Below are positions 5,353 through 25,307 of a stretch of DNA of 64,000 bases, piece after piece. The stretch is from contig JABZFM010000024.1 of the NCBI GenBank assembly GCA_014237465.1, forward strand, positions 1-64,000, in the 5' to 3' direction. The stretch is from Desulfobacteraceae bacterium. GTDB taxonomy: Bacteria > Desulfobacterota > Desulfobacteria > Desulfobacterales > Desulfosalsimonadaceae. The notes below the pieces were generated by a model. The model saw only the letters and a program-made list of their open reading frames with translations. It searched no databases and was not told the origin of the DNA. Numbering within the stretch: the stretch's first letter is position 1; every line of letters begins with the position of its first letter. Position numbers and translations under genes: made by a program.

Positions 5353-5437
5353 AAACACAGAGATGCTTTGTTTTTTTAATTATAACAAAGTCTCATAGGG
5401 AGTAGGGACAAACCATATTTCCAAAGTGGTGAATAAA

Positions 5438-8400: not shown

Positions 8401-8764
8401 GCTGGCAGGTGACTATGATCACGCAATCGAGACAGCTAAAAATTTACTGGATCTCGCAGAGCGCCATAACATGAAAAACCGGATTGGGTTTGCGCATTAC
8501 CTTTTAGGTGAAATTGCCATAGAAAAGGACCTATCACAGGCACCAACCCATTTTGAAAAAAGTATCGCAATATTTCAAGAAATCAAGGCTGAATATTATT
8601 TGGCACGGGCATATTCAGGTTACGGCCGATACCATAAACAACAGGGAGATATTGCCCAAGCACGGGAGTATTTAACGAAAGCTCTGGAAATCTTTGAACG
8701 ATTGGAAATCCTGATTGAGCCGGACAAGGTGAAGAAAGAGTTGGCTGACTTGCCCGAGAAATAA
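5438..8764 (+). CDS. Zinc-ribbon / class III nucleotide cyclase / AAA ATPase / TPR protein (copy 3)
   Basis: A 1108-residue paralog with two zinc ribbons (residues 3-47). The cyclase domain (~85-265) has metal aspartates D93 and D137 and the N214/R218 pair (DTTNLAARM). The AAA ATPase has Walker A GEAGVGKS at 314-321 and Walker B IIAIEDLHWID. TPR-like repeats run to the end. The residue seven before N214 is Thr, as in class IIIb (CyaC/sAC-like) cyclases, and the usual purine-site Lys is Gln (INQFTGDG). I chose the ATG at 5438 over an upstream GTG (5426) because the sequence then aligns with the paralogs' MKC.KCQ start. Its C-terminus is nearly that of copy 1. A pair of small hairpins follows the stop. 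Confidence 0.93.
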   Translation: MKCPKCQFDNREGAKFCKKCGEKLELLCPSCNYPYQPGSTFCDECGHNLQEPEEPPDYSEPQSYTPKFLADKILTSRSSIEGERKLVTVLFSDVAGFTSMSEKLDPEEVHQIMDGCFKILMDEIHKFEGTINQFTGDGVMALFGAPVAHEDHAQRACYASLSIQKAIEKYGEKLKNERGIDFKMRIGLNSGPVIVGAIGDDLRMDYTAVGDTTNLAARMENSAESGTVLVSKNTYKIVSDFFKFDSLKKIEVKGKEAPQEAFKLIGKSDVETRIAASAAKGLTRFVGRKNTMAALMEAYTRVKSGSGQVVGMVGEAGVGKSRLLLEFRNQLPPDEYTFLEGRCLHYGSAMAYLPFLDILKSHFKIADDDPESLIKQKIEEKILNLDQNLQSIFPPFQDLLSLKVDDDKYLQVEPSERKIRVFESLRNLFVQESQNRPLIIAIEDLHWIDKISEEFINYFIEWVQNTKILLILLYRPEYTHQWGSKSHYTKVGLTQLGTESSSRLVQAILESGEVVPEIRELVLKRAGGNPLFVEELTHNLLENGSIEKKNQQYVLTKKASDIQVPDTLQGIIASRIDRVEESLKRIMQMASVIGREFAFRILESIMGMREELKSSLLNLQGLEFISEKQLFPELEYIFKHALTQEVAYNSLLQNRKKEIHEKVAQSIEALYPDRLEEYFELLAYHYTRSENAEKALDYLDKANQKAVRLNAMQEAMTYFNEVMELLDTLDKTPENQKRRISIICNQIWVFFILLKVQEYYDLLNQYKSLAAGFDDKGLNARFYSALSQCEYTFGYFDQAIETASMAIDFGKASGQTEYAYWAYIFKLWSYCWIGEYEKVHELRQEILNLLEVSFNLQLYIHAFCASSMAFMEAGQCNKATQASNTAMEMAEKFSDKGLTIQSIIFIGWAYIIKGEPDKTIEHATIALNLAQTPRDKIVAQGGIAWGLCHTGEPNQGIEILVTIIPILKAARYQPFFINTHYFLAEGYWLAGDYDHAIETAKNLLDLAERHNMKNRIGFAHYLLGEIAIEKDLSQAPTHFEKSIAIFQEIKAEYYLARAYSGYGRYHKQQGDIAQAREYLTKALEIFERLEILIEPDKVKKELADLPEK

Positions 8765-10186: not shown

Positions 10187-13100
10187 ATGGAGGGCGAACG
10201 GAAGCGGGTGACGGTTCTTTTTGCTGATGTTGCCGGTTTTACTTCGATGTCTGAAAAACTCGATCCCGAAGAAGTCCACCAGATCATGGACGGGTGTTTT
10301 AAAATATTGATGGATGAGATTCACAATCATCAGGGGACAATAAATCAATTTACCGGGGACGGGGTGATGGCGTTATTCGGCGCACCGGTTGCTATAGAAA
10401 ACCATGCCCAGAATGCTTGTCAAGCTGCGCTATCCATACAAAATGCTATTAAAAATTACAGTGAAGAATTGAAGAATAAGTATGGCTTTAAATTTAAAAT
10501 GCGAATCGGTCTTAACTCAGGCCCTGTAATCGTTGGATCTATCGGTGATGATCTGCGTATGGACTATACCGCTATCGGGGATACCACCAACTTGGCTGCC
10601 CGGATGGAAAGCATGGCACAGCCGGGTACCATTCTTGTTTCGCCCATCACTTACAAGCGGGTCAGCCAGTTTTTTAAATTTGAACCGCTCGGCAAGGTGA
10701 CGGTGAAAGGAAAAGAAGAGCCGTTAGATGTATACGAGTTAATTAAAGCCAAAGCTGACAGGCCACATCTGGGCTTTGAGCGGCAGATTTATTCTGAAAT
10801 GGTGGGTCGGGACAATGACCTCAACAAATTAGAACTTCAAGTAAATAAAGCCGTTGATGGGGAAGGATCTATCGTTAATGTAATCGGCGAGGCGGGCATC
10901 GGAAAATCGAGGCTGATTGCTGAGTTAAAAAATCGGGATGTGGTGAGTCGTGTTACCTTTCTGGAAGGAAGGGCCATCTCCATCGGCAGAAATCTAAGCT
11001 TCCACCCTATCATCAACCTCCTGAAGCACTGGGCCCGTATTAAAAAAGACGATAATTCATCAACAGCACTCGGCAAACTGGAAACAGCAATCAGAAGTGT
11101 TTGCCCGGAAGATACAAATGAAATTTTTCCGTTTGTGGCAACCCTTATGGGTATGAAGCTATCCGGCCGACACGCAGAGAGGGTGAAAGGTATTGAGGGG
11201 GAGGCGCTTGAAAAACTGATTTTTAAAAATATGCGGGATCTTTTGGTCAAGTCAACTGAGCTGACGCCTTTGGTTGTTGTGATTGAGGACCTGCACTGGG
11301 CAGATACCAGCTCCATCGAACTCATGGAATCCCTGTTCCGCCTTGCAGAAACCCAACGGATTGTTTTTATCAACGTATTTAGACCCAATCACCCGGAAAC
11401 CGGCGACAAAATAATCGAATCCATCAAAGAAAAAATGCCTGTCTATTATGTTGAAATCAGACTGCAACCGCTAAACGAACAAATGAGCGAAACGCTTATT
11501 AACAATATGCTCAATATCAGAGGCCTGCAACATTCGGTGATTGATCAGATCATCCAGCGTTCCGGCGGGAATCCTTTTTTCATCGAGGAAGTGGTGCGGT
11601 CGTTTATTGATGAGGGGGCGGTGGTCAAGACGAACGGAGCGTTTACGGTCACTGAAAAAATAGAGAAAATGGTGATTCCGCACACCATTAACGATGTACT
11701 GATAGCAAGGATTGACCGGCTGGATGAAAATACCCGGGATCTTATCAAAATCGCATCGGTCATCGGGAGGAGTTTTTTTTACCGGATTCTCACCGAAGTG
11801 GCAAACACGATTGATGGGATCGACAACCGGCTGTCTTATTTAAAACAGATTGAACTCATCAGGGAACGGCAACGGATGGAGGAACTGGAATATCTGTTCA
11901 AGCATGCCCTTGCCCAGGAAGCCGCTTATGAATCGATTTTGCACCAGAAACGAAAAGATCTGCATCTGCAAGTGGCCCAATCGATTGAAAAGGTCTTTGA
12001 TGAACGGTTGCATGAGTTTTATGGGATGCTGGCATTGCACTACATGAAGGCCGAAAATTATGAAAAAGCGGAAAAATATCTTGTCAAGGCCGGAGAAGAA
12101 GCACTAAAAGCCTCGGCATCCAGCGAAGCCTTAAATTACTATCAGGAAGGGTTAAAATTGTATCTCCAATTGAGTAAAGATACCGCAGACCCTGAAAAAC
12201 TGGCCATGTTTGAAAAAAATATCGCCATCGCCCTTTATAACAAATGCCGATGGGAAGAGGCAGTAGAGCATATTGATAAAGTTTTTAAATATTGGAATAT
12301 GCCTGTTTCTCCGAATCGGCTTCTCGCAATAATTAAGTTTATCAAAAATATCATTTTTATTATGGCGAGTCTTGATCGTGTATCCAGAAGAGCAAGGAAA
12401 ATACCCAGTCAAAGGGACAACGAGGTTTTTGAATTATTATATATGCGTGCCACAGCATTGGTTTATTTCGATAATGTCGAACTTTTTTTTCAAACTATAA
12501 GTGGATTTAATAAGATTTGCCAATTTGATTGGACCAAATCTCCAGCTGCAACCCAGGGCTTTTTAGGTACAGCTGCTATATTTTCTTTTGCTGGATTATT
12601 TTTTAAGATAGCTTACAAAATTCTGGATATCGGCAAAAGTAGAATGGATCAAGAAAATATTCAAAATCTTCTTACAGTCACTATGACGTATGATTATACA
12701 AACACTTTTTCTGGAAATTGGGAAAAGATAGCACCTATTAAAGAAACGCTTCTAAATGAAGCTCTAAAAAAAGGGGATTTGTTCAATGCAATAAATTATT
12801 TTGACTGCAAAACATTTGTATCAAACGATATGGGAGATTTTGATAACACCCAACGCCTGATTGATCAAATGCTCGAAATCGCAGTTGCTTATGATTATAG
12901 TCTTGCTAATGTTTATGCCGATATGCAAAAAACATACTTGTTGCTAAAAAAAGGCCAACTATCTGAAGCACTAAGTAAAGCTGAACAGGGTATAATATTT
13001 TCTGGCCGTCACAGTATGGGGCTTAACCAGCAAATGTTCTTTAGCTGGAGAGCTCAAGCACAAATTTTGTTAAATAATCTTGATGGAGCGAAAGAATCTT

Positions 13101-13603
13101 TACTTAGGGCTAAGGAAATAATCGATCATCATAAATATTTAGCTCCAAATTTCATTACACCCTATTTGATAGCTCAATTCATGATGCATATTTATTTATT
13201 AAAACAGGCCATCGTTTCTAATAAAAGCAATAATCTATCAAAGCTTAAAAACAAAGCTCGTCATAGTGGAAAAAAAGCTTTAAATATTTTAAAAAGGAAT
13301 GCGATAGACTGGACCCAAGGCCTCAGGTTGATGGGTGAATATTATTGGCTCATCGACAAACAGAATAAGGCATTAAAATGGTGGGATAAGGCAATCAAAA
13401 AGGGGGAAGCATTAGGTGCCCGGCCGGATTTGTCCCGAACCTATTCTGAAGTCGGCAAAAGCCTGCTGGAACCCGACAGCAAGTACAAAGAATTAAACGG
13501 CATCACTGCGGAAGAATACCTTGAAAAAGCACGGACCCTGTTTGAAGATATGAATCTTCAGTGGGATCTGGATGAGTTGGATAAGGTGATGGCGGGAAGA
13601 TAA
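10187..13603 (+). CDS. Class III cyclase / AAA ATPase / TPR protein, 5'-truncated (copy 4)
   Basis: A 1138-residue paralog of copy 5 that lacks the zinc ribbon. Codons for PIDFTQPHSYTPKFLADKI upstream of the ATG are still readable from 10076, but that frame is blocked by the TAA at the edge of the 141-bp repeat. The first usable ATG falls at the start of the cyclase domain (MEGERKRVTVLFAD) and has no Shine-Dalgarno. Catalytic features survive: D14, D58, N135, R139, and Walker A GEAGIGKS ~234-241. The first ~650 and last ~90 residues closely match copy 5, while the TPR middle is much more divergent. The gene may be expressed at low level or not at all; the absence of other lesions suggests a recent event or continued function. 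Confidence 0.85.
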   Translation: MEGERKRVTVLFADVAGFTSMSEKLDPEEVHQIMDGCFKILMDEIHNHQGTINQFTGDGVMALFGAPVAIENHAQNACQAALSIQNAIKNYSEELKNKYGFKFKMRIGLNSGPVIVGSIGDDLRMDYTAIGDTTNLAARMESMAQPGTILVSPITYKRVSQFFKFEPLGKVTVKGKEEPLDVYELIKAKADRPHLGFERQIYSEMVGRDNDLNKLELQVNKAVDGEGSIVNVIGEAGIGKSRLIAELKNRDVVSRVTFLEGRAISIGRNLSFHPIINLLKHWARIKKDDNSSTALGKLETAIRSVCPEDTNEIFPFVATLMGMKLSGRHAERVKGIEGEALEKLIFKNMRDLLVKSTELTPLVVVIEDLHWADTSSIELMESLFRLAETQRIVFINVFRPNHPETGDKIIESIKEKMPVYYVEIRLQPLNEQMSETLINNMLNIRGLQHSVIDQIIQRSGGNPFFIEEVVRSFIDEGAVVKTNGAFTVTEKIEKMVIPHTINDVLIARIDRLDENTRDLIKIASVIGRSFFYRILTEVANTIDGIDNRLSYLKQIELIRERQRMEELEYLFKHALAQEAAYESILHQKRKDLHLQVAQSIEKVFDERLHEFYGMLALHYMKAENYEKAEKYLVKAGEEALKASASSEALNYYQEGLKLYLQLSKDTADPEKLAMFEKNIAIALYNKCRWEEAVEHIDKVFKYWNMPVSPNRLLAIIKFIKNIIFIMASLDRVSRRARKIPSQRDNEVFELLYMRATALVYFDNVELFFQTISGFNKICQFDWTKSPAATQGFLGTAAIFSFAGLFFKIAYKILDIGKSRMDQENIQNLLTVTMTYDYTNTFSGNWEKIAPIKETLLNEALKKGDLFNAINYFDCKTFVSNDMGDFDNTQRLIDQMLEIAVAYDYSLANVYADMQKTYLLLKKGQLSEALSKAEQGIIFSGRHSMGLNQQMFFSWRAQAQILLNNLDGAKESLLRAKEIIDHHKYLAPNFITPYLIAQFMMHIYLLKQAIVSNKSNNLSKLKNKARHSGKKALNILKRNAIDWTQGLRLMGEYYWLIDKQNKALKWWDKAIKKGEALGARPDLSRTYSEVGKSLLEPDSKYKELNGITAEEYLEKARTLFEDMNLQWDLDELDKVMAGR

Positions 13604-13623
13604 AAAAATTTTCTTGCCAAGTA

Positions 13624-13666
13624 AAATTAACCCTGCTATTTTTCAATTAAAATATAAATTAACCCT
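13624..13666 (+). promoter_or_regulatory. Two direct repeats with 32-bp spacing upstream of DUF4143 ATPase
   Basis: AAATTAACCCT occurs at 13624-13634 and 13656-13666, exactly 32 bp apart. The second ends 18 nt before the ATG at 13685. Spacing and distance to the start codon match the array in front of the other DUF4143 gene, whose core sequence differs. This suggests an operator used by the gene's own product or a partner. Confidence 0.7.
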
Positions 13667-13684
13667 TTAAATGTTCATTAGCTC

Positions 13685-14989
13685 ATGGATCAAATCACAT
13701 TACAGGTGTTGCTGGGGCATAACCCATGGCTGCTTGATAAGAATGCGTGGCAGGATATCATAACCAGCCATCTTCCGGATCGGTATATTCCGCGGCACCT
13801 TGTTTCACCGCTTGAATGTATCAATAACAAAATTAATCTCATCATCGGCCCCAGACAGTCCGGCAAATCGACACTTATATGGCATTTTCTGGCAAACTTG
13901 TCACAGCCGTTTCTTTTGATTAATTGTGAAGAGCCATCCTGCCGGGAGCTGTGTAAATCCCCTGCACTATTTTTAACAAGTATTAAGGATATCGCAAGCC
14001 CGCTCCCCGGACTATTTTTTGAAGAGATTCAACATCTACCTGAAGCCGGTCTGTTTTTAAAGGGACTGGTGGATTTGAAACCCAATGTGCCGATTTTTGT
14101 TACCGGTTCCGCAAGTTATCACTTAAGAAGCAAAACACGGGAATCCCTTGCGGGCAGAGCTGTCCGGCATCACCTCCTTCCGTTCGGCATGACTGAGCTT
14201 TGGCCCGAACAACTGCCGCCTTTAATTTCAGAGGAAAAAGCAGCAACAAACTGGAAAGAGCTATTGATATGGGGTGGGTATCCGGAAGTGGTTTTAAATC
14301 AGAATAAGCAGGCAATTCTTGCACAGTTAGTTGAAGCCTTTGTATTACGAGATGCCTCGGATATCTACAGGATCAAACGACCGGATGCATTCAGGAAACT
14401 TCTCTCCCTTGCTGCATCGCAAATCGGGAACCTTGTCAATTTTTCCAATTGGGCTGAAAACGCCGGCATAAGTGTCAATACGGTCATTGAATATGTCAAC
14501 CTGATGGCGGAAAGTCATCTGGTGAAACTGGTTCCGCCTTTTGTGGGCGGCAAACGTGCTGAAGTGACATCAACCCCAAAAATCTTTTTCCTTGATAACG
14601 GGTTGCGCAATCTGTTGTTTGGCGGGTTTGCTTCTGAAAATCAACGGGCGGATTTTGGCGCTTTGACCGAAAATCTTGTTTTTACGGAATTGTGCAAAAA
14701 TACAAATCCCCTGCTGGATACGATACTGTATTGGCGGTCCAGTTCAGGAGCGGAAGTTGATTTTGTTATTCGGACAGCCGGGCAGCTGATTGCTGTTGAA
14801 GTGAAGGCCGGGGCATTAAAACGGCCCAAAGTGAGCCGATCGCTGAGGAGTTTTATCCAGGCTTACCGGCCCGACAAGGTATTTGTCTTTAACGAATCGC
14901 TTGTTGATTCTATAAAAATTGAAGGAATCGATGTTATATTTGACCGGCTGATTCACATACCTTCCAGGATAGGAAAAAATCAGCCTTAA
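13685..14989 (+). CDS. AAA ATPase with C-terminal DUF4143 domain (ATPase A)
   Basis: A 434-residue ATPase with Walker A GPRQSGKS at residues 55-62 and Walker B GLFFEEIQHL at ~108-117. The C-terminal DUF4143 part carries SSGAEVDFVI and, further on, VEVKAG. That D...EVK pattern is the one seen in PD-(D/E)XK nuclease-like folds. The AAA_14/DUF4143 family is very common in bacteria and archaea, but its cellular role is not established. The gene follows cyclase copy 4, with a pair of 32-bp-spaced repeats directly before its start. A second, distant homolog lies at 18772-20076 on the other strand. A defence, selfish-element or regulatory role are all possible. Confidence 0.9.
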   Translation: MDQITLQVLLGHNPWLLDKNAWQDIITSHLPDRYIPRHLVSPLECINNKINLIIGPRQSGKSTLIWHFLANLSQPFLLINCEEPSCRELCKSPALFLTSIKDIASPLPGLFFEEIQHLPEAGLFLKGLVDLKPNVPIFVTGSASYHLRSKTRESLAGRAVRHHLLPFGMTELWPEQLPPLISEEKAATNWKELLIWGGYPEVVLNQNKQAILAQLVEAFVLRDASDIYRIKRPDAFRKLLSLAASQIGNLVNFSNWAENAGISVNTVIEYVNLMAESHLVKLVPPFVGGKRAEVTSTPKIFFLDNGLRNLLFGGFASENQRADFGALTENLVFTELCKNTNPLLDTILYWRSSSGAEVDFVIRTAGQLIAVEVKAGALKRPKVSRSLRSFIQAYRPDKVFVFNESLVDSIKIEGIDVIFDRLIHIPSRIGKNQP

Positions 14990-15197: not shown

Positions 15198-18100
15198 ATG
15201 AAATGTCCAAAATGCCAACGTGAAAATCCTGAAGATGCAAGTTTTTGTAATGGATGCGGCCTTAATCTTCAAAATCCAGAATCCTCCCCTTCCATTGATT
15301 TCACCCAACCCCACTCCTATACCCCCAAGTTTCTTGCCGATAAGATTCTCACTACCCGAAGTGCCATGGAGGGTGAACGGAAGCGGGTCACCGTGCTATT
15401 TGCGGATGTGGCTGGATTTACTTCTATGTCTGAAAAACTCGATCCTGAACAGGTCCACCAGATCATGGACGGGTGCTTTAAAATCCTGATGGATGAAATT
15501 CACAATCACCAGGGAACGATTAATCAGTTTACCGGTGACGGGGTGATGGCTCTTTTTGGTGCGCCGGTTGCCATTGAAAATCATGCACAGAATGCCTGCC
15601 AGGCAGCGCTATCCATGCAAAGCGCTATTAAAAGATACAGCGAAAATTTGAAGACAAAGTTCGGGTTGGATTTTAAAATGCGGATTGGTCTCAACTCCGG
15701 CCCGGTGATCGTGGGTTCTATCGGGGATGATCTGCGGATGGACTATACTGCCATCGGCGATACCACAAATTTAGCCGCCCGAATGGAAAGCATGGCAAAG
15801 CCGGGCACAGTATTGGTTTCTCCAATCACTTACAAACGGGTTAGCCAGCAATTCGATTTTAAGCCTTTGGGTGAGGCCAAGGTTAAAGGTAAAGAAAAAC
15901 CTTTAGATGTATATGAGCTGATTAAAGCCAAGGTTGACAGACCACGTCTGGGTCTGGAGCGACAGATTTATTCTGAAATGGTCGGTCGGGATAACGATCT
16001 CAGCAAACTTGAACTTCAAGTCATGAAAGCTGCTAACGGGGAAGGATCCATTGTCAACGTGATCGGTGAAGCGGGCATTGGTAAATCAAGGCTTATTGCC
16101 GAGCTAAAGAACCGCGAAGTAGTGAAACGCACAACCCTTCTTGAAGGCAGGGCCATCTCCATCGGCAGAAATTTAAGCTTTCACCCCATTATAAACCTTT
16201 TTAAGCACTGGGCCCGTATTAAAGAAGACGATAATTCATCAACAGCACTCAGTAAACTGGAAACAGCCATCAGAAGTGTATGCCCGGAAGATACAAATGA
16301 AATTTTCCCTTTTGTGGCAACCCTGATGGGCATGAAGCTTTCCGGCAGGCACGCCGAAAGGGTTAAAGGCATTGAGGGGGAGGCGCTTGAAAAACTGATT
16401 TTTAAAAATATGCGGGATTTTTTAATTAAATCAACTGACCTGACACCTCTGATAATTGTGATAGAGGACCTTCACTGGGCGGATACCAGTTCCATTGAGC
16501 TTCTGGAAGCCCTGTCCAGCCTCGCAGAAACCCAGCGGATTCTTTTTATCAATGTATTCCGGCCCAATCACCTGGAAACAGGCGATAGAATCATAGAAAC
16601 CATCAAAGAAAAACTTCCTGTCTATTATGTTGAAATCAACTTGCAACCACTAAACGAACAAATGAGTGAAATGCTCATTAACAATATGCTCAATATAAGG
16701 GGTCTCCAGCATGCAATGGTTGATCAGATCATTCAGCGTTCCGGCGGCAATCCTTTTTTTATCGAGGAAGTGGTTCGGTCGTTTATTGATGAAGGCGCGG
16801 TGGTCAAAACAAATGGTGAGTTTGAAGTCACTGAAAAGATAGAGAAAATGATTATCCCGCATACCATCAATGATGTGCTCATGGCAAGGATTGACCGGCT
16901 TGATGAGAATACAAGAGATCTGGTCAAAGTCGCCTCGGTGATCGGGCGGAGCTTTTTTTACCGGATTCTTACACAAGTGGCAAACACGGTTGATGGGATC
17001 GACAACCGGCTGTCTTATTTAAAACAGATTGAACTCATTCGTGAGCGGCAGCGGATGGAGGAGCTGGAATATCTTTTCAAGCACGCCCTTGCACAGGAAG
17101 CGGCCTATGAGTCGATTTTGCTTCAGAAACGAAAAGATCTGCATCTGCAAGTGGCCCGATCAATCGAAAAGGTATTTGATGAACGGCTTCATGAATTTTA
17201 CGGGATGCTGGCACTTCATTATATAAAAGGCGAAGATTATGAAAAAGCAGAACATTATCTGGTAAAAGCCGGTGAAGAAGCCTTGCGTTCTTCTGCGTCC
17301 AGCGAAGCGTTGAACTATTATCAGGAAGGATTAAAGCTTTATTTGCAGTTTAATAAAGATACTGCAGACCCGGAAAAACTGGCCATATTTGAAAAAAATA
17401 TCGCCATCGCCCTATACAACAAGTCTCGATGGGTTGAGGCCGTGGAACACACAGATAAAGTTTTCGGGCACTGGAATATACCTACTTCCCCTAATAGGAT
17501 ACTCCTTCTGATAAAGTCTGCGAAAAATATAATCTCTATTATGACAGGCCTGTATCGTCTATTCGAAAAATCAAAACCTTCCCCCAGCAAAAGAGATAGC
17601 GAGTCATCAGATTTATTTTATAAAAAAGCTACGGCATTAATATATGTCGATAGTCTCAAATTTTTTTTTGATACTATCAGCAACTTTAACAATGCTTACA
17701 AGGTTGATATCGATAAGTCACAAGAAACGATCAACTTTTTTATAGGTACAGCCGGTGTGATTTCTGCAAGTGGTTTATCATTTAAATTAGCTTATAAAAT
17801 GTTAGAAATCGGCAAATCAAAAATGGATATGAATAACGTTAAAATTCTCATGTCGTATAACATGATATTTTTGATAGCGAATATTTTCTCGGGGAATTGG
17901 GACAGGATTGGACGTTTTAAAAAAACACTTGTAGATGACGCTTTTAAAAAAGGCGAAATGTTTGATGCCCTGAATTATATATTTTGGTTTCACTCTTTGA
18001 AAATCGAAACAGGTGATTTTTCAGATACTGACTTATGGATTAAAAAAATGAATGAAATTGCAAGCTCATATAATTATTATCTGGGGTATGTATACGCCAG

Positions 18101-18782
18101 CTTTTTCAAAATAGTGTCGCTAATAACGAGGAAAATTCAATTCTCTGAAGCTTGTGCGGAAGCTGACCATGTCATAACATTATGCAGCCAATATGATTTT
18201 AAACCGCATCACATGCTTGGTTTTTGCTGGAAAGCTGAAGCACTTGTTCTTTTAAATGATATTGATGGAGCTAAAAGATATATGTATCAAGGGGAAAAAA
18301 TAATTGATCAAGACAAGTTAACGCCCCCTTATATCATGGCAACCTATCTTATAGCTCAGTTCATTTTAGATATTACAATATTAAAGAGAGCCTTGACCTC
18401 TAAGGCTGACCCTGATCTATCAAATCTTAAAAAAAAAGCATGTAAAAGTGGAAAAGCCGCATTAAGGAAATTGAAAAATTATGCGCTAAACCGAACAAAA
18501 ACTCTTCGATTGATGGGCGAATATTACTGGCTCGCCGGCAAACAGAATAAAGCGCTCAAATGGTGGGATAAAGCCATCAAAAAAGGAGAAGAATTAGGCG
18601 CTCGACCGGATTTATCCCGTACCTATTTTGAAGTCGGCAAAAGCCTGCTGGAGCCCGGCAGCAAAACCAAAGAATTAAACGGCATCACCGCAGAAGAATA
18701 CCTTAAAAAGGCCCGGACCCTGTTTGAAGAGATGGACCTTCAGTGGGATCTGGATGAGTTGGATAAGGTGGTTAATCAATAA
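15198..18782 (+). CDS. Zinc-ribbon / class III nucleotide cyclase / AAA ATPase / TPR protein (copy 5)
   Basis: A complete 1194-residue paralog. It has one zinc ribbon (C3, C6, C17, C20), then the cyclase (~60-245) with metal aspartates D70 and D114. N191/R195 are the transition-state residues; Thr184 sits where ADCY-type enzymes have the purine-binding Asp, and Gln110 where they have Lys. Walker A is GEAGIGKS at 290-297, and a Walker B-like VIEDLHWAD follows. TPR repeats fill the rest. A GAGGA ribosome site precedes the ATG. Compared with copy 4, the catalytic head and the last ~90 residues are nearly the same while the TPR middle has drifted. The 3' end overlaps the convergent ATPase gene by 11 bp. 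Confidence 0.94.
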   Translation: MKCPKCQRENPEDASFCNGCGLNLQNPESSPSIDFTQPHSYTPKFLADKILTTRSAMEGERKRVTVLFADVAGFTSMSEKLDPEQVHQIMDGCFKILMDEIHNHQGTINQFTGDGVMALFGAPVAIENHAQNACQAALSMQSAIKRYSENLKTKFGLDFKMRIGLNSGPVIVGSIGDDLRMDYTAIGDTTNLAARMESMAKPGTVLVSPITYKRVSQQFDFKPLGEAKVKGKEKPLDVYELIKAKVDRPRLGLERQIYSEMVGRDNDLSKLELQVMKAANGEGSIVNVIGEAGIGKSRLIAELKNREVVKRTTLLEGRAISIGRNLSFHPIINLFKHWARIKEDDNSSTALSKLETAIRSVCPEDTNEIFPFVATLMGMKLSGRHAERVKGIEGEALEKLIFKNMRDFLIKSTDLTPLIIVIEDLHWADTSSIELLEALSSLAETQRILFINVFRPNHLETGDRIIETIKEKLPVYYVEINLQPLNEQMSEMLINNMLNIRGLQHAMVDQIIQRSGGNPFFIEEVVRSFIDEGAVVKTNGEFEVTEKIEKMIIPHTINDVLMARIDRLDENTRDLVKVASVIGRSFFYRILTQVANTVDGIDNRLSYLKQIELIRERQRMEELEYLFKHALAQEAAYESILLQKRKDLHLQVARSIEKVFDERLHEFYGMLALHYIKGEDYEKAEHYLVKAGEEALRSSASSEALNYYQEGLKLYLQFNKDTADPEKLAIFEKNIAIALYNKSRWVEAVEHTDKVFGHWNIPTSPNRILLLIKSAKNIISIMTGLYRLFEKSKPSPSKRDSESSDLFYKKATALIYVDSLKFFFDTISNFNNAYKVDIDKSQETINFFIGTAGVISASGLSFKLAYKMLEIGKSKMDMNNVKILMSYNMIFLIANIFSGNWDRIGRFKKTLVDDAFKKGEMFDALNYIFWFHSLKIETGDFSDTDLWIKKMNEIASSYNYYLGYVYASFFKIVSLITRKIQFSEACAEADHVITLCSQYDFKPHHMLGFCWKAEALVLLNDIDGAKRYMYQGEKIIDQDKLTPPYIMATYLIAQFILDITILKRALTSKADPDLSNLKKKACKSGKAALRKLKNYALNRTKTLRLMGEYYWLAGKQNKALKWWDKAIKKGEELGARPDLSRTYFEVGKSLLEPGSKTKELNGITAEEYLKKARTLFEEMDLQWDLDELDKVVNQ

Positions 18783-20076
18783 GCGGAAACAGAGAAACAC
18801 CATAGAGTGAATAATTGCAAATATTATCATCTTTTCTGAAATTCATTAGTGTGGACCGCGACAATACCAGGGGACTATATTTTTCACCATAAACTTTAAG
18901 GCTCTTTTTTTTTCTGCTGATTCCCGCCTTTACTTCAAGGGGAAAAATCTGCTCCTTATATTGTACGATGAAGTCAACTTCCGCAGCACTTTTACTCGAC
19001 CAGTAATACAGATTTTTATGGTTATTTGATACGAGTTCCTGTGCCACATAATTTTCCATAAATGCGCCATTGTACTCTGAAAACAAACGATTCCCGTCTA
19101 TCACTGTTTTTTGGGATATATCAAGCATAGCGCCCAATAGTCCCGTATCAAGCAAAAAGAGTTTGAAAATATTATCTTCACGATAACCGCTTAATGGAAG
19201 CCTGGGCGCTTTGATTTTGAACGACTTATAAGCAAGACCGGCATCCGCAAGCCATTGAATGGCTTCATTGTATTCACGCGCCCGTACGTTTTTAGAAATT
19301 TCGGAAAATTGAAATTTTTTATTCTCCTTTGCCAGTTGACCGGGAATCGCATGCCATGTATTTGCGATTTTTATTGCTTCAGACTTTGACGTATATTTCG
19401 AAAAATCAAACGTATACGCTTCAAGTAGATTTTTCTGGACATTTCTTACTTTTTCTAAATTCCCGTCTGACCTGTATTGCACTATCGCTTCGGGCATTCC
19501 GCCAATGAATAAATACATTCTAAGGTGGTCAATAAGATCCTCGTGAAAACTCGTTTCAATTGGCTGAAAATCTTTTTTGGTTTTAAGATAATGGCGGAGT
19601 TTTGATTTACCAATCCCCTCAAGATATTCCCCAAAAGAAAAAGGATAGAGGTCTAAAAAATTAACCTTTCCGACAGGAAACGGCGCTGACTGGCCAATCT
19701 TTATACCCAGCAGGGAGCCGGCGGCGGCAATATGATACTGGTTTGCATTTTCATGGAAGTATTTCAAACTGTTTAACGCCTGGGGGGAATGCTGAATTTC
19801 ATCAAATATGATGAGCGTTTTATCAGGATAAATTGTTGATTCAAGGTAAATGCTCAGTTTTTGAATGATTTTTTCCGGCTGAATGCGACTTTCAAAAATA
19901 TTATTTAACCCGGGATCCTCTTCAAAATTAATATAGGCAACTGTTTCATATTCATTCGCACCAAAATTCTTAAGAAGATACGTCTTGCCAACCTGCCGGG
20001 CGCCTTTGAGGATCAGAGGTTTCCGTTGCGTATTGTTTTTCCATTCGATCAATTTGTTATAAATATCTCGTTTCAT
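18772..20076 (-). CDS. AAA ATPase with C-terminal DUF4143 domain (ATPase B)
   Basis: A 434-residue ATPase (MKRDIYNKLIEWKN start) with Walker A GARQVGKT and Walker B LIIFDEIQHSPQALN. The C-terminal DUF4143 domain has the AAEVDFIVQ ... LEVKAG motif pair. I prefer the ATG at 20076 to an upstream TTG (20112), because the upstream codons run through a 32-bp repeat array and ATPase folds of this family start near this point. The gene converges on cyclase copy 5 and overlaps its end. It is only distantly similar to ATPase A. Four AAAACGTGAT-type repeats spaced exactly 32 bp sit directly upstream, which suggests strict and probably autogenous control (inference). Confidence 0.9.
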   Translation of the reverse strand: MKRDIYNKLIEWKNNTQRKPLILKGARQVGKTYLLKNFGANEYETVAYINFEEDPGLNNIFESRIQPEKIIQKLSIYLESTIYPDKTLIIFDEIQHSPQALNSLKYFHENANQYHIAAAGSLLGIKIGQSAPFPVGKVNFLDLYPFSFGEYLEGIGKSKLRHYLKTKKDFQPIETSFHEDLIDHLRMYLFIGGMPEAIVQYRSDGNLEKVRNVQKNLLEAYTFDFSKYTSKSEAIKIANTWHAIPGQLAKENKKFQFSEISKNVRAREYNEAIQWLADAGLAYKSFKIKAPRLPLSGYREDNIFKLFLLDTGLLGAMLDISQKTVIDGNRLFSEYNGAFMENYVAQELVSNNHKNLYYWSSKSAAEVDFIVQYKEQIFPLEVKAGISRKKKSLKVYGEKYSPLVLSRSTLMNFRKDDNICNYSLYGVSLFPLID

Positions 20077-20093
20077 AAATATTAAAATACACA

Positions 20094-20199
20094 AAAACGT
20101 GATGAAATACAAGTTTTATATCCAAAAAATGTGATAAAAATGCTATTTTTGATCCATAAAACGTGATTTTTTTCTGTTTTTTGATGCATAAAACGTGAT
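20094..20199 (-). promoter_or_regulatory. Four iterons with exact 32-bp period upstream of ATPase B
   Basis: AAAACGTGAT (plus strand) lies at 20094-20103, 20158-20167 and 20190-20199, and the variant AAAATGTGAT at 20126-20135. Starts are separated by 32, 32 and 32 bp, about three helical turns, so all copies face the same side of the helix. The first is 17 nt from the ATPase start codon at 20076. This is best explained as an operator array. It is too short and its spacers are too AT-rich and similar to be a CRISPR. Confidence 0.8.
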
Positions 20200-20270
20200 T
20201 TTTTATTAATTATTACAGATTGGAATATACTTTAACTTGCTGTAATTAAAAAAAGTTAACTCTATCTGGA

Positions 20271-20312
20271 GAGATGAATCTCCAGTGGGATCTGGATGAA
20301 TTGGATCGGATT
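20271..20312 (+). pseudogene. Fossil C-terminus of a sixth cyclase paralog
   Basis: The codons read EMNLQWDLDELDR, matching the last residues of copies 4 and 5 (MNLQWDLDELDKV in copy 4). No upstream part of the gene remains, and the frame runs on past the position where the paralogs stop. The following ~75 bp also resemble the sequence after copy 4, so this is the remnant of a duplicated cyclase-plus-operator segment. Confidence 0.75.
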
Positions 20313-20336
20313 GGCCGGCAACTTTTTTCTTATCAA

Positions 20337-20379
20337 AAATTAACCCTGCTATTTTTCAATTTAAATGCAAATTAACCCT
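20337..20379 (+). promoter_or_regulatory. Orphan pair of 32-bp-spaced repeats (relic operator)
   Basis: AAATTAACCCT occurs at 20337-20347 and 20369-20379, the same core and the same 32-bp spacing as in front of ATPase A. No ATPase gene follows; the sequence instead leads into the sigma-54 peptide promoter. It appears to be a duplicated copy whose gene was lost. Confidence 0.7.
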
Positions 20380-20552
20380 GAAAATATTCATTAATTTCCG
20401 GAAAGTTCTGAATTTCCGCCGGAATTATCGCAAAAATACATGTACAGCACTCATAATATGCGCCTCAGCCCATCCGGACACAGACCCAAAATTTCACCAG
20501 AAAAAAAATTATTCGTAAACAAAACAAGTCATTAAAAACTCCCCACGCGGTT

Positions 20553-20619: not shown

Positions 20620-20679
20620 ATGGAAACTTTACTGACAATAGGACACATCGTTGTTTATGCCATTCTCTGGATCGCTTAA
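20620..20679 (+). CDS. Tiny hydrophobic peptide 1 (19 aa)
   Basis: It encodes METLLTIGHIVVYAILWIA, a single hydrophobic stretch with a central His and Tyr, and would be expected to insert in or lie on the membrane. An AGGAGGA ribosome site lies 6 nt before the ATG and a sigma-54 promoter ~50 bp upstream. A near-copy (peptide 3) with its own promoter is at 22808, and differences between copies include several silent third-position changes, which supports translation. It resembles no family I can name; possibilities include a type I toxin-like peptide, a membrane-stress effector or a signalling peptide. Confidence 0.75.
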   Translation: METLLTIGHIVVYAILWIA

Positions 20680-20771
20680 CGGATCATTCGCCAAGTCAAT
20701 GAAAAGATCCATTAAACAAAGAGATGGCGCAATTCTTTTCAATAACGCAAATTAAAAAAAGGAGAAATAAA

Positions 20772-20834
20772 ATGGAAATTTTAACAATACTCACAAACGT
20801 TGTTTATTGTTTTACTCTTGGGTGGATTGTATAA
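20772..20834 (+). CDS. Tiny hydrophobic peptide 2 (20 aa)
   Basis: It encodes MEILTILTNVVYCFTLGWIV, following peptide 1 by 92 nt in the same presumed transcript, with an AAAGGAG ribosome site 7 nt upstream. It shares length, the ME..L start, an aromatic Tyr near position 12 and a C-terminal W-I with peptides 1 and 3, but is more divergent. It is probably the second member of a two-peptide unit; function unknown. Confidence 0.6.
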   Translation: MEILTILTNVVYCFTLGWIV

Positions 20835-21120: not shown

Positions 21121-22602
21121 TCAATCTTCATCAATATATTTTTTGACGGTACGTGTATCCAGCCCGGTCCTTCGCGCCACTTCAATGTAAGTGCCGAACT
21201 TGTCATGTAAATACCGGCAGTATCCCTTTAAAAGATTTTTGGCGTCAACATTACCGTTCTCCATGTCTTTTACGAGCTGAGACGGATAGATCTTTGAATT
21301 GGAATCAGTTTCTCTTTGATGACTGCCGTAACTTCGGTTGAGGAGTATTCGTCTGACGCATTGCGCCAGCTCCCGAACATTGCCCGGCCATGAATAATTA
21401 GTTCCCAGTTCAGCATCAATTGTCTTTTTCGTCAATTCAACCAGTTCCGCAGAAGGTTCCCCGGTAATCCGTTCAATGGTTACTTCCAGCAGATCATCCA
21501 GCTCACTGGAATCCTCTTCAATCCGCTGCCGAAGCGGGGGAACCATGATGATATCCGAACACAGCCGGTAAAAAAAATCATCCCGCAGCACCCCCTTGCC
21601 CTGAATTCTGTTAATGGGCTGGTTTGTGGCCGCAATGACCCGGCCTTTAAAACGGCTTTCATCGTGACTGCCGACCGGACTGTAGACCCTTTCTTCTAAG
21701 ACTTTCAGCAGCTTGATTTGAACCGGTATGGAAACTTCACCGATTTCATCCAGAAAAATGGAGCCATGGGGACTGCACCGGTCAAAAATGCCTTCATGGT
21801 CATTCACCGCGCCGGTAAAAGCGCCCTTCTTGTGACCAAAAAGCTCTGATTCAATCAGGTTTTCGGAAAACTGAGAAAGATTCATTGAAACAAAAGAGCT
21901 GTTAAAGCTTTCGGTAAAGCATGCCTTTTTTTCATCAAATGGAATAAATCCGCTTCTGCCGATGGCCATGGCGGCAGCACCTTTTCCGGTTCCTGTCTCC
22001 CCCAGAATCAACGTTGAGAAATCCTCCATGCGGTTCCATAAAAACCGGTTATACAGATCAAGATCATAGGTAAAAACCTTATTCCACAGGCTTTCCCGCA
22101 ATTTTTTCATACATTGACTTCTGCCCACCAGGCTGTGGTGGATGAAATAAAAGGCCCTCCTGAGTTGATAAAACAAAGCAAAGAATTGGATGGCTTCATC
22201 GTGTGAAAAACCTCTCTTGTGAAAAATGGCAAAAACATCATTTGCAAAGTTAACTTTTACTGATTTTTCTCCGGCCATAATCTGTTCCTGAATCAGGCTG
22301 TCAAACTGGCCGACAAACGTATAAAAAAGGTCAAATAGGCATGCGGAAGTAAGAATTTGACGGTCTTTTCCTGAAAATCGATTGATGTCGCACATTCCGC
22401 TGGATTCAAATTTTTGAATTCTTCTTTTGACTTCAGCAACAGCCGCTCCCACCAGCTTATTTATAGCCACATCCGGAAACATTCCCACGATTTTAAGATC
22501 ATTTTCCATTCTTTCATCTGAGAACGGATTGGCAAGCACTGCCTGACTTACAATCGAGAAAAACTCTTTTTCCTCAGCTTTTAAACGATATCTATTCGCC
22601 AT
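21121..22602 (-). CDS. Sigma-54-dependent transcriptional activator without receiver domain
   Basis: A 493-residue bacterial enhancer-binding protein. The AAA+ domain (~190-415) has Walker A GETGTGKG at 201-208, the sigma-54-contacting GAFTGA loop at 260-265, Walker B SIFLDEIGE at 281-289 and the sensor II-type WPGNVREL at 405-412. A Fis-like helix-turn-helix ends the protein (YIEVARRTGLDTRTVKKYI, 472-490). The first ~190 residues are helical, match no receiver, GAF or PAS pattern I know, and probably sense the signal. GGGAGGTG precedes the ATG at 22602, which I prefer to an upstream in-frame start. It is flanked on both sides by sigma-54 promoters for tiny peptide genes, the obvious candidate targets. 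Confidence 0.92.
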   Translation of the reverse strand: MANRYRLKAEEKEFFSIVSQAVLANPFSDERMENDLKIVGMFPDVAINKLVGAAVAEVKRRIQKFESSGMCDINRFSGKDRQILTSACLFDLFYTFVGQFDSLIQEQIMAGEKSVKVNFANDVFAIFHKRGFSHDEAIQFFALFYQLRRAFYFIHHSLVGRSQCMKKLRESLWNKVFTYDLDLYNRFLWNRMEDFSTLILGETGTGKGAAAMAIGRSGFIPFDEKKACFTESFNSSFVSMNLSQFSENLIESELFGHKKGAFTGAVNDHEGIFDRCSPHGSIFLDEIGEVSIPVQIKLLKVLEERVYSPVGSHDESRFKGRVIAATNQPINRIQGKGVLRDDFFYRLCSDIIMVPPLRQRIEEDSSELDDLLEVTIERITGEPSAELVELTKKTIDAELGTNYSWPGNVRELAQCVRRILLNRSYGSHQRETDSNSKIYPSQLVKDMENGNVDAKNLLKGYCRYLHDKFGTYIEVARRTGLDTRTVKKYIDED

Positions 22603-22626
22603 ATTCCACCTCCCGCAATAATACAC

Positions 22627-22735: not shown

Positions 22736-22752
22736 TGGCACGATTATTGGAT
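22736..22752 (+). promoter_or_regulatory. Sigma-54 promoter P2 for peptide genes 3 and 4
   Basis: TGGCAC (22736-22741), five bases, then TTGGAT (22747-22752), with the same spacing and the same -12 variant as P1. Similarity to P1 continues through the leader (TTATTGGATTA.TAATAAT.AAAC) into the peptide gene. The regulator gene starts 134 bp away in the opposite direction. Confidence 0.82.
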
Positions 22753-22807: not shown

Positions 22808-22867
22808 ATGGAAACTTTACTGACTTTCGGACACATTGTTTTTTATGCCATTCTCTGGATCGCATAA
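22808..22867 (+). CDS. Tiny hydrophobic peptide 3 (19 aa)
   Basis: It encodes METLLTFGHIVFYAILWIA, differing from peptide 1 only at positions 7 and 12, with several silent codon differences as well. An AAGGAGAG ribosome site lies 6 nt upstream. It is the first gene behind promoter P2 and, with peptide 1, shows that promoter, leader and peptide were duplicated as a unit around the activator gene. Function is unknown; a membrane-active role is inferred from hydrophobicity only. Confidence 0.75.
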   Translation: METLLTFGHIVFYAILWIA

Positions 22868-22980
22868 ATCAAAAGATTACCGGCAAATGAAAAAATCCTC
22901 TTAAATCAATTAAAACTTATAAAAAAGGGGGCAACAAAATGTTTTTCCGCAAACAATCCATCATCGAAAAGGATAAAAAA

Positions 22981-23040
22981 ATGGAATCCTTGCTGACATT
23001 CGGACACACCATTATTTATGCCCTTTTTCGGATTATATAA
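22981..23040 (+). CDS. Tiny hydrophobic peptide 4 (19 aa, or 33 aa from 22939)
   Basis: The core reads MESLLTFGHTIIYALFRII, aligning residue by residue with peptides 1 and 3 (ME.LLT.GH...YA....I). An in-frame ATG at 22939 would add a 14-residue basic and acidic N-terminal tail; that start has a GGGGG ribosome site, the internal one AAAAGGA. Alignment favours the internal start, but both could be used. The conserved Trp17 is Arg here. The stop lies ~30 bp from the end of the convergent phospholipase gene. Confidence 0.65.
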   Translation: MESLLTFGHTIIYALFRII

Positions 23041-23069: not shown

Positions 23070-25307
23070 TTATCTGTCTTTCCACTCCCGTATTTTCATT
23101 TTCCCATATTGATAGCCAACTTCAACAATCTCATCGAATGATTCAAACTCCAGGAATTTAAAGCGCTCCAAAGGAAGCCGCAGGCTCAGGTCGGCATCCA
23201 GCTGGGCCTTTTCGGTCTTTTGCCTGCTGCCGACTACCGCGGACCTGTAGATGATATCCAATATGTTGGGAACATACTCCCGATTTTTTAATGGGATCAT
23301 CCGGTCCCAGAGAACCTTCCATGGAGACGGGAATTCTGCCTGCGAAGTGCTCAGCACTTTTGCATCGGTCACATCCACGGCAATCACCTTGCCTTTAAAA
23401 AACCGCCGGGCAATGTCAACCGGCATATTGTTCATAATGCCGCCGTCTACAAGAATTTCATTGTTCTGAACCACCGGCGGAACAATGCCCGGGACCGAGG
23501 AAGTCGCCCGGATGGCTTTAAAAAGCGGTCCTTTACGGTGTATAACGGCCGCCGCTGAAGTCAAATTGGTGGAAATACAGAAAAATGGGAGCCACAGGTC
23601 TTCAATCTTTGTTTCCCTGAAAATCATTTTTGCAGCCAGGTCAAACTTCCGCCCCCGGATGAAGGAAATCAACGGCAGGGTCATGTCCTTCATGGGCTTT
23701 GAAAGCACCCAAAACCACCGATTGTTCCGTATCAAATCAGCATATCCCATGCCAATGGCATATTGGGATGCGATAAGAGCGCCCATACTTGTGCCGCTGA
23801 TACTGTCAATGGGGACTTCACATTCCTCAAGGGCACGGATAACCCCTATGTGGGCCAAACCGCAAGCAGCGCCGCCACTGAGGACCAGGTTAAAAGCGTT
23901 TCCGGTCAATAAACGGGCAATGCGGCCTATATCCGAATTCCTGCCTTGAAGAACATGATAATGTTCATTTGCCGGAAGCACGCTGAGCCAATGATCAGAA
24001 CCTGAAGGACGTGAGGTGCCTTCCGGATGAATAAATACCAGGGCCCGGTTCGATGATTCGCCGCATTCATTCTGGAAAAATGAAATAAATTCTTTTTCAA
24101 TGACCGAAACCGGCTTGTTTCCCGGAACAAGCACCAGGATTTTGTCGGCATTTTGAAGGCATTGTTTTGTCCAGGCAGATGCCGACATATCCGCCTCATA
24201 AACCATAAAATCATACCGGGTTTCCTGCTCGTTAAACCATGCGGAAAGTCTGACGGTAAACGGGTTTTCTTCCTTGATATGCTCTATGCCGCGCAACCCG
24301 AAAATGCCGCTCATATGCCGGCTGTTCAGGTGGAGGGTCGACGTATGCATGGACAACTCTTTTGAGAGGCATTCTGAAAATTCGGCCAGGGGCATATCCG
24401 GGCAAACAGCGACAATCGCCAGGTTTATTTGGGCAGCAGATTCACGAAAGGGTTCTTCGGCCTTCAGGATCCGTCTGGCAAGTGTCTGGCCGATGGACAT
24501 GATTGCTCGTGGATGGACGCTGGCAAGCCTTTCAAATGCATCCGTGGAAATCTTCACAAGATCCGATTCGCGCAGTGCAAAAAGCGTCGCGGACCTGAGC
24601 CCTCCGGTAAGGAACGCCATCTCTCCCAGGATTTCACCGCGACCGATGGTGCCCAGGTCTATTTTGCTATGATTCTCATCTTCCTTGACAACCTGAAGTC
24701 TCCCGCTGACAACGATATACAGGCAGTCCCCCAGGTCACACTGGCGGCAGAGGATCTCTTTGCGGCAAAGATGGATCCACTCACTGTGCTTTTCAATATA
24801 CTCAAGCTCTGTTTTATCCAGGGTCCCGAATAGGTTCGGCAGAAGCGCCCTAAGCTGGTCGTTTCTTAATCGTCTGCGGGCGATGTTTAAAATTTTCTGA
24901 AACGTATCCGGCGCATCTGAAGCGATGCATTCCATAACAGGGGGGGGAATTTTGAGCAGGCGGGTTCTGGTGCCGGCATAAACGCTGGCGGTTCGGCGTC
25001 CCCCGGTGAGTGCCTGAATTTCACCGACAGGCATAAACGGGTCCACTTTCCCTATAAGTACCGGGCGGCCTTTCTCATCCGCCACATTAGACACGTTAGA
25101 CACACTTGACATGGACACTTCCAGTTGTCCGAGAAGGACCACGTACATGGCGTCTGCAGGGTCATCCTGGCAAAACAGAATTTGACCTTTTTCGAGTTCA
25201 ACCGATTCCGAATTCTCACAAATCATCTGCCAGACCGATTCATTGATCTGGCAGAACAGCTCCGACTGTCGCATTTCGCAAAAAAGGTCTTCACTCAACC
25301 GGTTCAT
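23070..25307 (-). CDS. Patatin-like phospholipase with two cyclic-nucleotide-binding domains
   Basis: A 745-residue protein related to the bacterial NTE (neuropathy target esterase) group. Two cNMP-binding domains occupy ~15-135 and ~155-280, each with a phosphate-cassette-like segment (GEIQALTGGRRTAS ~95-108; GEMAFLTGGLRSAT ~228-241). A linker of ~180 residues follows, then the patatin domain (~470-670) with oxyanion GGAACG, nucleophile S507 in GTSMG, and the catalytic Asp in DGG (621-623). It probably hydrolyses phospholipids or lysophospholipids at the inner membrane under cyclic-nucleotide control. Five cyclase genes lie within 25 kb upstream, so cAMP is a plausible ligand (inference). 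It is convergent with peptide 4. Confidence 0.92.
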   Translation of the reverse strand: MNRLSEDLFCEMRQSELFCQINESVWQMICENSESVELEKGQILFCQDDPADAMYVVLLGQLEVSMSSVSNVSNVADEKGRPVLIGKVDPFMPVGEIQALTGGRRTASVYAGTRTRLLKIPPPVMECIASDAPDTFQKILNIARRRLRNDQLRALLPNLFGTLDKTELEYIEKHSEWIHLCRKEILCRQCDLGDCLYIVVSGRLQVVKEDENHSKIDLGTIGRGEILGEMAFLTGGLRSATLFALRESDLVKISTDAFERLASVHPRAIMSIGQTLARRILKAEEPFRESAAQINLAIVAVCPDMPLAEFSECLSKELSMHTSTLHLNSRHMSGIFGLRGIEHIKEENPFTVRLSAWFNEQETRYDFMVYEADMSASAWTKQCLQNADKILVLVPGNKPVSVIEKEFISFFQNECGESSNRALVFIHPEGTSRPSGSDHWLSVLPANEHYHVLQGRNSDIGRIARLLTGNAFNLVLSGGAACGLAHIGVIRALEECEVPIDSISGTSMGALIASQYAIGMGYADLIRNNRWFWVLSKPMKDMTLPLISFIRGRKFDLAAKMIFRETKIEDLWLPFFCISTNLTSAAAVIHRKGPLFKAIRATSSVPGIVPPVVQNNEILVDGGIMNNMPVDIARRFFKGKVIAVDVTDAKVLSTSQAEFPSPWKVLWDRMIPLKNREYVPNILDIIYRSAVVGSRQKTEKAQLDADLSLRLPLERFKFLEFESFDEIVEVGYQYGKMKIREWKDR

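Follow-up and report, generated by a model that had tools for sequence, protein, structure and literature searches.

A promoter-linked array with a 32–33 bp period accompanies relatives of a DUF4143 ATPase in many bacterial phyla

The window analyzed in this study, a 64,000-nt stretch of DNA, carries on its minus strand (18772–20076) a gene encoding a 434-aa AAA_14-DUF4143 ATPase. The product exceeded the curated cut-offs of both PF13173 (AAA_14, 100.4 bits) and PF13635 (DUF4143, 132.6 bits), and its residues 1–429 were matched by the PADLOC model PDLC04786 (E 1.1e-169) for PDC-S01, a putative single-gene defence system with a putative anti-phage role. No family matching the protein was found in NCBIfam. 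An upstream TTG could extend the ORF; homologues begin with MKR at the ATG adopted here (20074–20076).

In the AlphaFold2 model of the protein (mean pLDDT 89, pTM 0.89), residues 1–320 matched the folds of the archaeal ATPases 2QEN (Z 15.4, 268 aligned, 4.8 Å) and 2FNA (Z 14.4) and of the NLR-type proteins CED-4 and RPP1 (Z about 14), and Orc/Cdc6-like proteins were also among the matches. As modelled, the core is of the STAND type (NBD-HD-WHD); the Walker motifs GARQVGKT and FDE are conserved in the family alignment. The winged helix (approximately residues 228–322), when searched alone, mostly resembled winged-helix regulators (ArsR, MarR, Orc1), with moderate scores (Z 6–7). Fold matches of the model span residues 1–355; the C-terminal motif is, as judged from sequence, of the PD-(D/E)XK type, with E381-x-K383 invariant in 56 sequences and, in the compared rows, either D or E at position 368 (D368 in the window protein). 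Sequence searches retrieved no relevant solved structure, and a Pfam search detected no Rep (replication initiator) domain.

Upstream of this gene, the 10-mer AAAA[C/T]GTGAT occurs on the plus strand at 20094, 20126, 20158 and 20190, with start-to-start distances of 32, 32 and 32 bp, and its nearest copy lies 17 nt from the ATG, so that both the four-repeat array with its exact period and its distance from the ATPase start were as the original prediction had described them. Copy 1 (20094–20103, AAAACGTGAT) reads ATCACGTTTT on the gene strand, at −27 to −18, and copy 2 (20126–20135, AAAATGTGAT) has one mismatch. Copies 3 (20158–20167) and 4 (20190–20199) belong to the longer units TTTTTGATCCATAAAACGTGATTTTTT (20146–20172) and TTTTTGATGCATAAAACGTGATTTTTT (20178–20204), which are identical at 26 of 27 bp and read ATCACGTTTTATGSATCAAAAA on the gene strand. 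A candidate sigma70-like promoter can be read from the sequence on the minus strand at 20084–20112, consisting of TTGTAT (20112–20107), a 17-bp spacer and TATTTT (20089–20084). This candidate promoter ends 7 nt from the ATG and would give near-leaderless transcripts; copy 1 falls within its spacer.

The best direct-repeat score of this region was 23.2, at an offset of 32, compared with a maximum of 14.4 among 2000 dinucleotide shuffles (0/2000 matching it), and none of these 2000 shuffles contained four equally spaced 10-mers. A genome-wide search (5.09 Mb) that tolerated up to 3 mismatches found no further instance of the paired motif, and single 13-mer sites amounted to two exact ones, both inside the array, and five with one mismatch. 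A wide regulon was rejected on the basis of this absence of the motif pair and scarcity of single sites.

A second DUF4143 ATPase, also of 434 aa and belonging to another PDC-S01 subfamily, is encoded on the plus strand at 13685–14989. Its upstream region (13624–13666, plus strand) contains two copies of AAATTAACCCT, at 13624 and 13656, exactly 32 bp apart; thus, the geometry is the same as in the four-repeat array, whereas the sequence is different. An orphan copy of this pair, again with two AAATTAACCCT 32 bp apart, was found on the plus strand at 20337–20379. It lies within a segment (20259–20393) that adjoins the four-repeat array and is a stray duplicate, 77% identical, of the cyclase tail and promoter at 13535–13680, which suggests that a DUF4143 copy was lost here. 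The DUF4143 genes alternate with genes of the adenylate/guanylate-cyclase + AAA_16 + TPR type (10187–13603 and 15198–18782), 78% identical in DNA, and a third related cyclase-type ORF is located at 5426–8764. Near the cyclase genes, the ORF at 23070–25307 appears by eye to encode two cyclic-nucleotide-binding-type domains and a patatin-like domain.

The genome contains 15 full-length DUF4143 genes, seven of which showed a best direct-repeat offset of 32 or 33 bp within 150 bp upstream, with a unit sequence that differs from gene to gene; several of the other paralogues carry inverted repeats at the promoter instead. With the exception of the single orphan promoter duplicate, array pairs in this genome are restricted to their own gene.

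A survey was made of 105 relatives of the window protein (33–73% identical, about ten bacterial phyla). Since loci were collected by protein similarity only and not by the presence of an array, there was no selection for repeats. The best offset between 14 and 79 bp was determined in the 150 bp upstream of each automatically assigned start codon, with 245 upstream regions of other ORFs from the same loci as controls. Offsets of 32 or 33 bp were best in 77 of the 105 relatives (53 and 24, respectively; raw counts in which closely related groups are over-represented), compared with 7 of the 245 controls (3 and 4) and 3.3% of shuffles. When the set was thinned to 30 relatives by a 60% protein identity cut, 21 stayed positive. 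Repeat scores of at least 10 at these offsets were reached by 64/105 relatives and 1/245 controls, and the mean score was flat at approximately 3–4 across all offsets except 32 (14.1), 33 (7.9) and 64–66. The signal was present in Bacillota, relatives from the order to which the window belongs (Desulfobacterota according to record titles), Bacteroidota, Spirochaetota, Fibrobacterota, Fusobacteriota, Lentisphaerota, Kiritimatiellota and Pseudomonadota, taxa being those named in the records, some of them metagenome-assembled genomes that may be mis-binned. All eight relatives on plasmid or phage contigs (Glaesserella, Fusobacterium, Segatella, Parabacteroides, Bacteroides, Acinetobacter, Collinsella and a faecal phage contig) showed offsets of 32, 33 or 66 bp. 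Periodic repeats upstream of DUF4143 genes in relatives, which the original prediction had called for, were therefore found, and close orthologues, whose lack of such repeats would have spoken against it, retain the 32-bp lattice. Indeed, a 32–33 bp promoter-linked array accompanies relatives of this DUF4143 ATPase in many bacterial phyla.

About a quarter of the relatives lack a 32/33 peak, which counts against an operator of this kind. Where a strong tandem array is missing, the promoter of a DUF4143 gene is often spanned by a long, near-perfect inverted repeat with arms of about 19–26 bp, as upstream of the genes in loci L012, L199, L201, L174, L180 and L226. The TT_P0211 gene of Thermus thermophilus showed no 32-bp repeat, and a TGAATGA-CTA-TCATTCA palindrome was noted by eye at its promoter. 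The phylum's other DUF4143 subfamilies gave a tandem signal that was weaker yet present (offsets of 32/33 in 16/87, compared with 15/357 controls, p 3e-5), and their promoters had inverted repeats in 32/87 compared with 65/357 controls (p 3e-4).

Chance or neutral tandem duplication could be proposed for an AT-rich region such as this one, and the arrays of L044, L098 and L119 consist of near-identical copies, as if recently duplicated. However, unrelated units share the 32/33 spacing across phyla, and cores are kept while spacers diverge. This explanation, whose probability we consider negligible, was rejected by the survey together with the shuffles. Arrays are not a general property of ATPase-PDDEXK genes either, a possibility that was rejected when none of 22 genes of PF08011, another ATPase-nuclease family, from related genomes peaked at 32/33. 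In the sister family DUF234 (PF03008, archaeal-ATPase type; loci L266–L300), the best offset was 15 bp in 13 of 32 promoters, with units that are often palindromic (e.g., TAGTCTACTTTAAAG, AGTCTACTTTATAGTAGACTACTTTATAG). Tandem operators may therefore be common in the superfamily, each family having its own period.

When folded at their period, the arrays resolve into a conserved core of 12–20 bp and a free spacer, commonly in 2–4 copies. The window core CATAAAACGTGAT matches, on the opposite strand, the Lachnospiraceae core GGCTCATAAAATGTGA; GTCCAAAAATATGCA is the core in Fibrobacterota and some Clostridia, and CCCTTGAAAAAGTGTA in others. Units of the form TGTGA-N6-TCAC occur in a clade 47–50% identical to the window protein, and TATGCA units in one protein clade spread over Clostridia, Fibrobacterota and Spirochaetota. 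Orthologues 66–73% identical retain little beyond TCAC and an A/T run, their flanks having diverged; nevertheless, the TCAC cores, located at −123/−91/−59/−27 from the ATG in the window, are found at −121/−89/−57/−25 in one orthologue and at −90/−58/−26 in two. As 32–33 bp correspond to three helical turns, the sites are placed on one helix face, an arrangement compatible with cooperative binding.

Sigma70-like promoters near arrays were found on the gene strand in 54 of 75 cases and on the opposite strand in 13, with the −10 in fixed phase to the lattice (mean 28–29 bp, Rayleigh p about 2e-5). Since the array of many relatives precedes or overlaps the promoter, it would escape transcription there, and this speaks against an RNA device. 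Downstream of genes, arrays were essentially absent (4/99), and transposon-like arrays at both gene ends were rejected on this count.

The reading that we hold to be probable is that the array is an operator read by the ATPase encoded next to it, for a cooperative and gene-specific autoregulation that is probably repressive. Each 32-bp unit would be occupied by one ATPase protomer or dimer, which would contact it with the winged helix, part of the STAND-like core. Binding of neighbouring ATPases would be cooperative, so that a row is built over the promoter or up against it. Such a row would exert negative autoregulation, keeping a potentially toxic nuclease-ATPase at low levels until a change in ATP/ADP state or an invasion signal alters the assembly and releases expression. 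What was observed is the array, with its conservation, spacing, fixed place and phase to the promoter, co-inheritance with the protein and uniqueness in the genome, and the fold was predicted; that the ATPase is the binder, that it binds cooperatively, that the effect is repressive and that phage are involved at all is inferred. Each gene has its own unit sequence, scarce or absent elsewhere, that follows the protein tree, which points to a reader that moves along with the gene; the ATPase is the sole candidate shared by all loci. Unit similarity increased with protein identity (rho 0.42 vs 0.21 for shuffled units), and on the protein tree, whose clades span phyla, the period required 11 changes compared with at least 17 in 300 shuffles, and the motif class 15 compared with at least 23. 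Nevertheless, shared ancestry is a confounder whenever motif and protein vary together, and it weakens the statistical argument for the ATPase as reader. In addition, a mutual-information scan against motif class placed its top columns over all domains without singling out the winged helix, and winged helices of STAND proteins are often switches rather than DNA readers, which also counts against this model.

Repression is favoured because many of the promoters are near consensus (e.g., TTGACA/TATAAT) and, in the window, copy 1 falls inside the candidate promoter, between −35 and −10. The position of the array is also compatible with activation. The main rival is a positive autoregulation in which an ATP-bound multimer, sitting on the array as MalT does on its boxes, recruits RNA polymerase and so makes an all-or-none switch, an outcome that we regard as possible but unlikely. 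The arrays of many relatives stop shortly before the −35, and the −10 follows approximately 28 bp beyond the array end, as would be expected of an activator, whereas near-consensus promoters should make an activator needless and the copy inside the window promoter suits repression. MalT reads DNA through a separate C-terminal LuxR-type domain, which the DUF4143 ATPase lacks, its C-terminus being PD-(D/E)XK-like, and MalT activates sugar genes, whereas the only array found for the ATPase is at its own gene. MalT of E. coli is a precedent in that this STAND ATPase forms multimers by means of its NOD and occupies repeated promoter boxes cooperatively (PMC4381067).

Reading of the array by a host regulator, such as a protein of the CRP/FNR type, seems improbable. 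TGTGA-N6-TCAC units are present in several clades (L035, L038, L041, L044, L045 and L229), the window half-site is CGTGAT/TGTGAT, and cyclase and cyclic-nucleotide-binding genes are nearby. However, the window units do not form the CRP palindrome TGTGA-N6-TCACA, as they have one half-site each with GGATC or GCATC on the partner side. Other clades keep the spacing with unrelated units (TATGCA, TTGAAAAAGTGTA, AATTTGCC), DUF4143 paralogues of a single genome differ in sequence, and the few 13-mer sites in the genome also speak against such a regulator.

Even more doubtful is that the array is a site of action of the ATPase-nuclease in recombination, iteron-type replication or self-recognition, perhaps in gene mobility. 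Wide movement of the gene between phyla, conservation of the PD-(D/E)XK motif and the Orc/Cdc6-like proteins in the fold search speak for it; against this, there is one array per gene, upstream only and phased with a gene-strand promoter, and the protein belongs to no replication initiator family. The designation of the repeats as iterons in the original prediction is therefore not to be taken to mean a replication origin. Plasmid iterons share with the window array the even spacing of direct repeats in helix phase, whereas the window lacks a Rep protein or replication context and its array is tied to a promoter.

The autoregulatory reading can be extended, although we consider this extension rather unlikely, to a lattice that would act as a DNA template on which an NLR-like STAND ATPase-nuclease lines up in register at its own promoter. 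The bound protein would be both autorepressor and pre-loaded effector store, and infection (through ATP exchange, a ligand or competing DNA) would dissolve the row, turning on expression and nuclease activity together.

A related arrangement has been described for RptR, a repressor encoded in a phage-defence island that binds direct repeats overlapping the island promoter (PMC12255303). The two are alike in the overlap of direct repeats with a defence-gene promoter; however, RptR is a small protein dedicated to repression and its repeats, three in number and 9 bp long, contain TAGCTA, whereas in the window the ATPase-nuclease itself is the putative regulator and the unit measures 32–33 bp. No earlier description of an array of this kind was found in a search of the open-access literature. 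The window gene belongs, by Pfam and PADLOC models, to a family (PDC-S01/AAA_14-DUF4143) for which this literature describes neither operator nor regulation, even where DUF4143 is named, in agreement with the original prediction.

Few predicted defence genes of bacteria and archaea are as numerous as those of the poorly characterised DUF4143/PDC-S01 family. A 2026 study counted approximately 40,000 PDC-S01 genes and placed this candidate fourth in frequency among prokaryotic defences, experimental validation being pending for most such candidates (PMC12988326). An operator shared by the whole family, fixed in geometry and specific to each gene in sequence, would name a DNA ligand for each protein and predict autoregulation. 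It would also make the ATPase a candidate for a STAND protein that binds DNA, and the spacing of array units could help to annotate and subdivide the DUF4143 family.

Downstream of the orphan duplicate in window coordinates, four tiny ORFs (20621–20680, 20772–20834, 22809–22868 and 22982–23040) encode related hydrophobic peptides of 19–20 aa (METLLTIGHIVVYAILWIA and variants). They have strong ribosome sites and flank a sigma54 activator gene (21121–22626), and two of them come after sigma54-like −24/−12 elements, TTGGCACACTTATTGG near 20552 and TTGGCACGATTATTGG near 22736.
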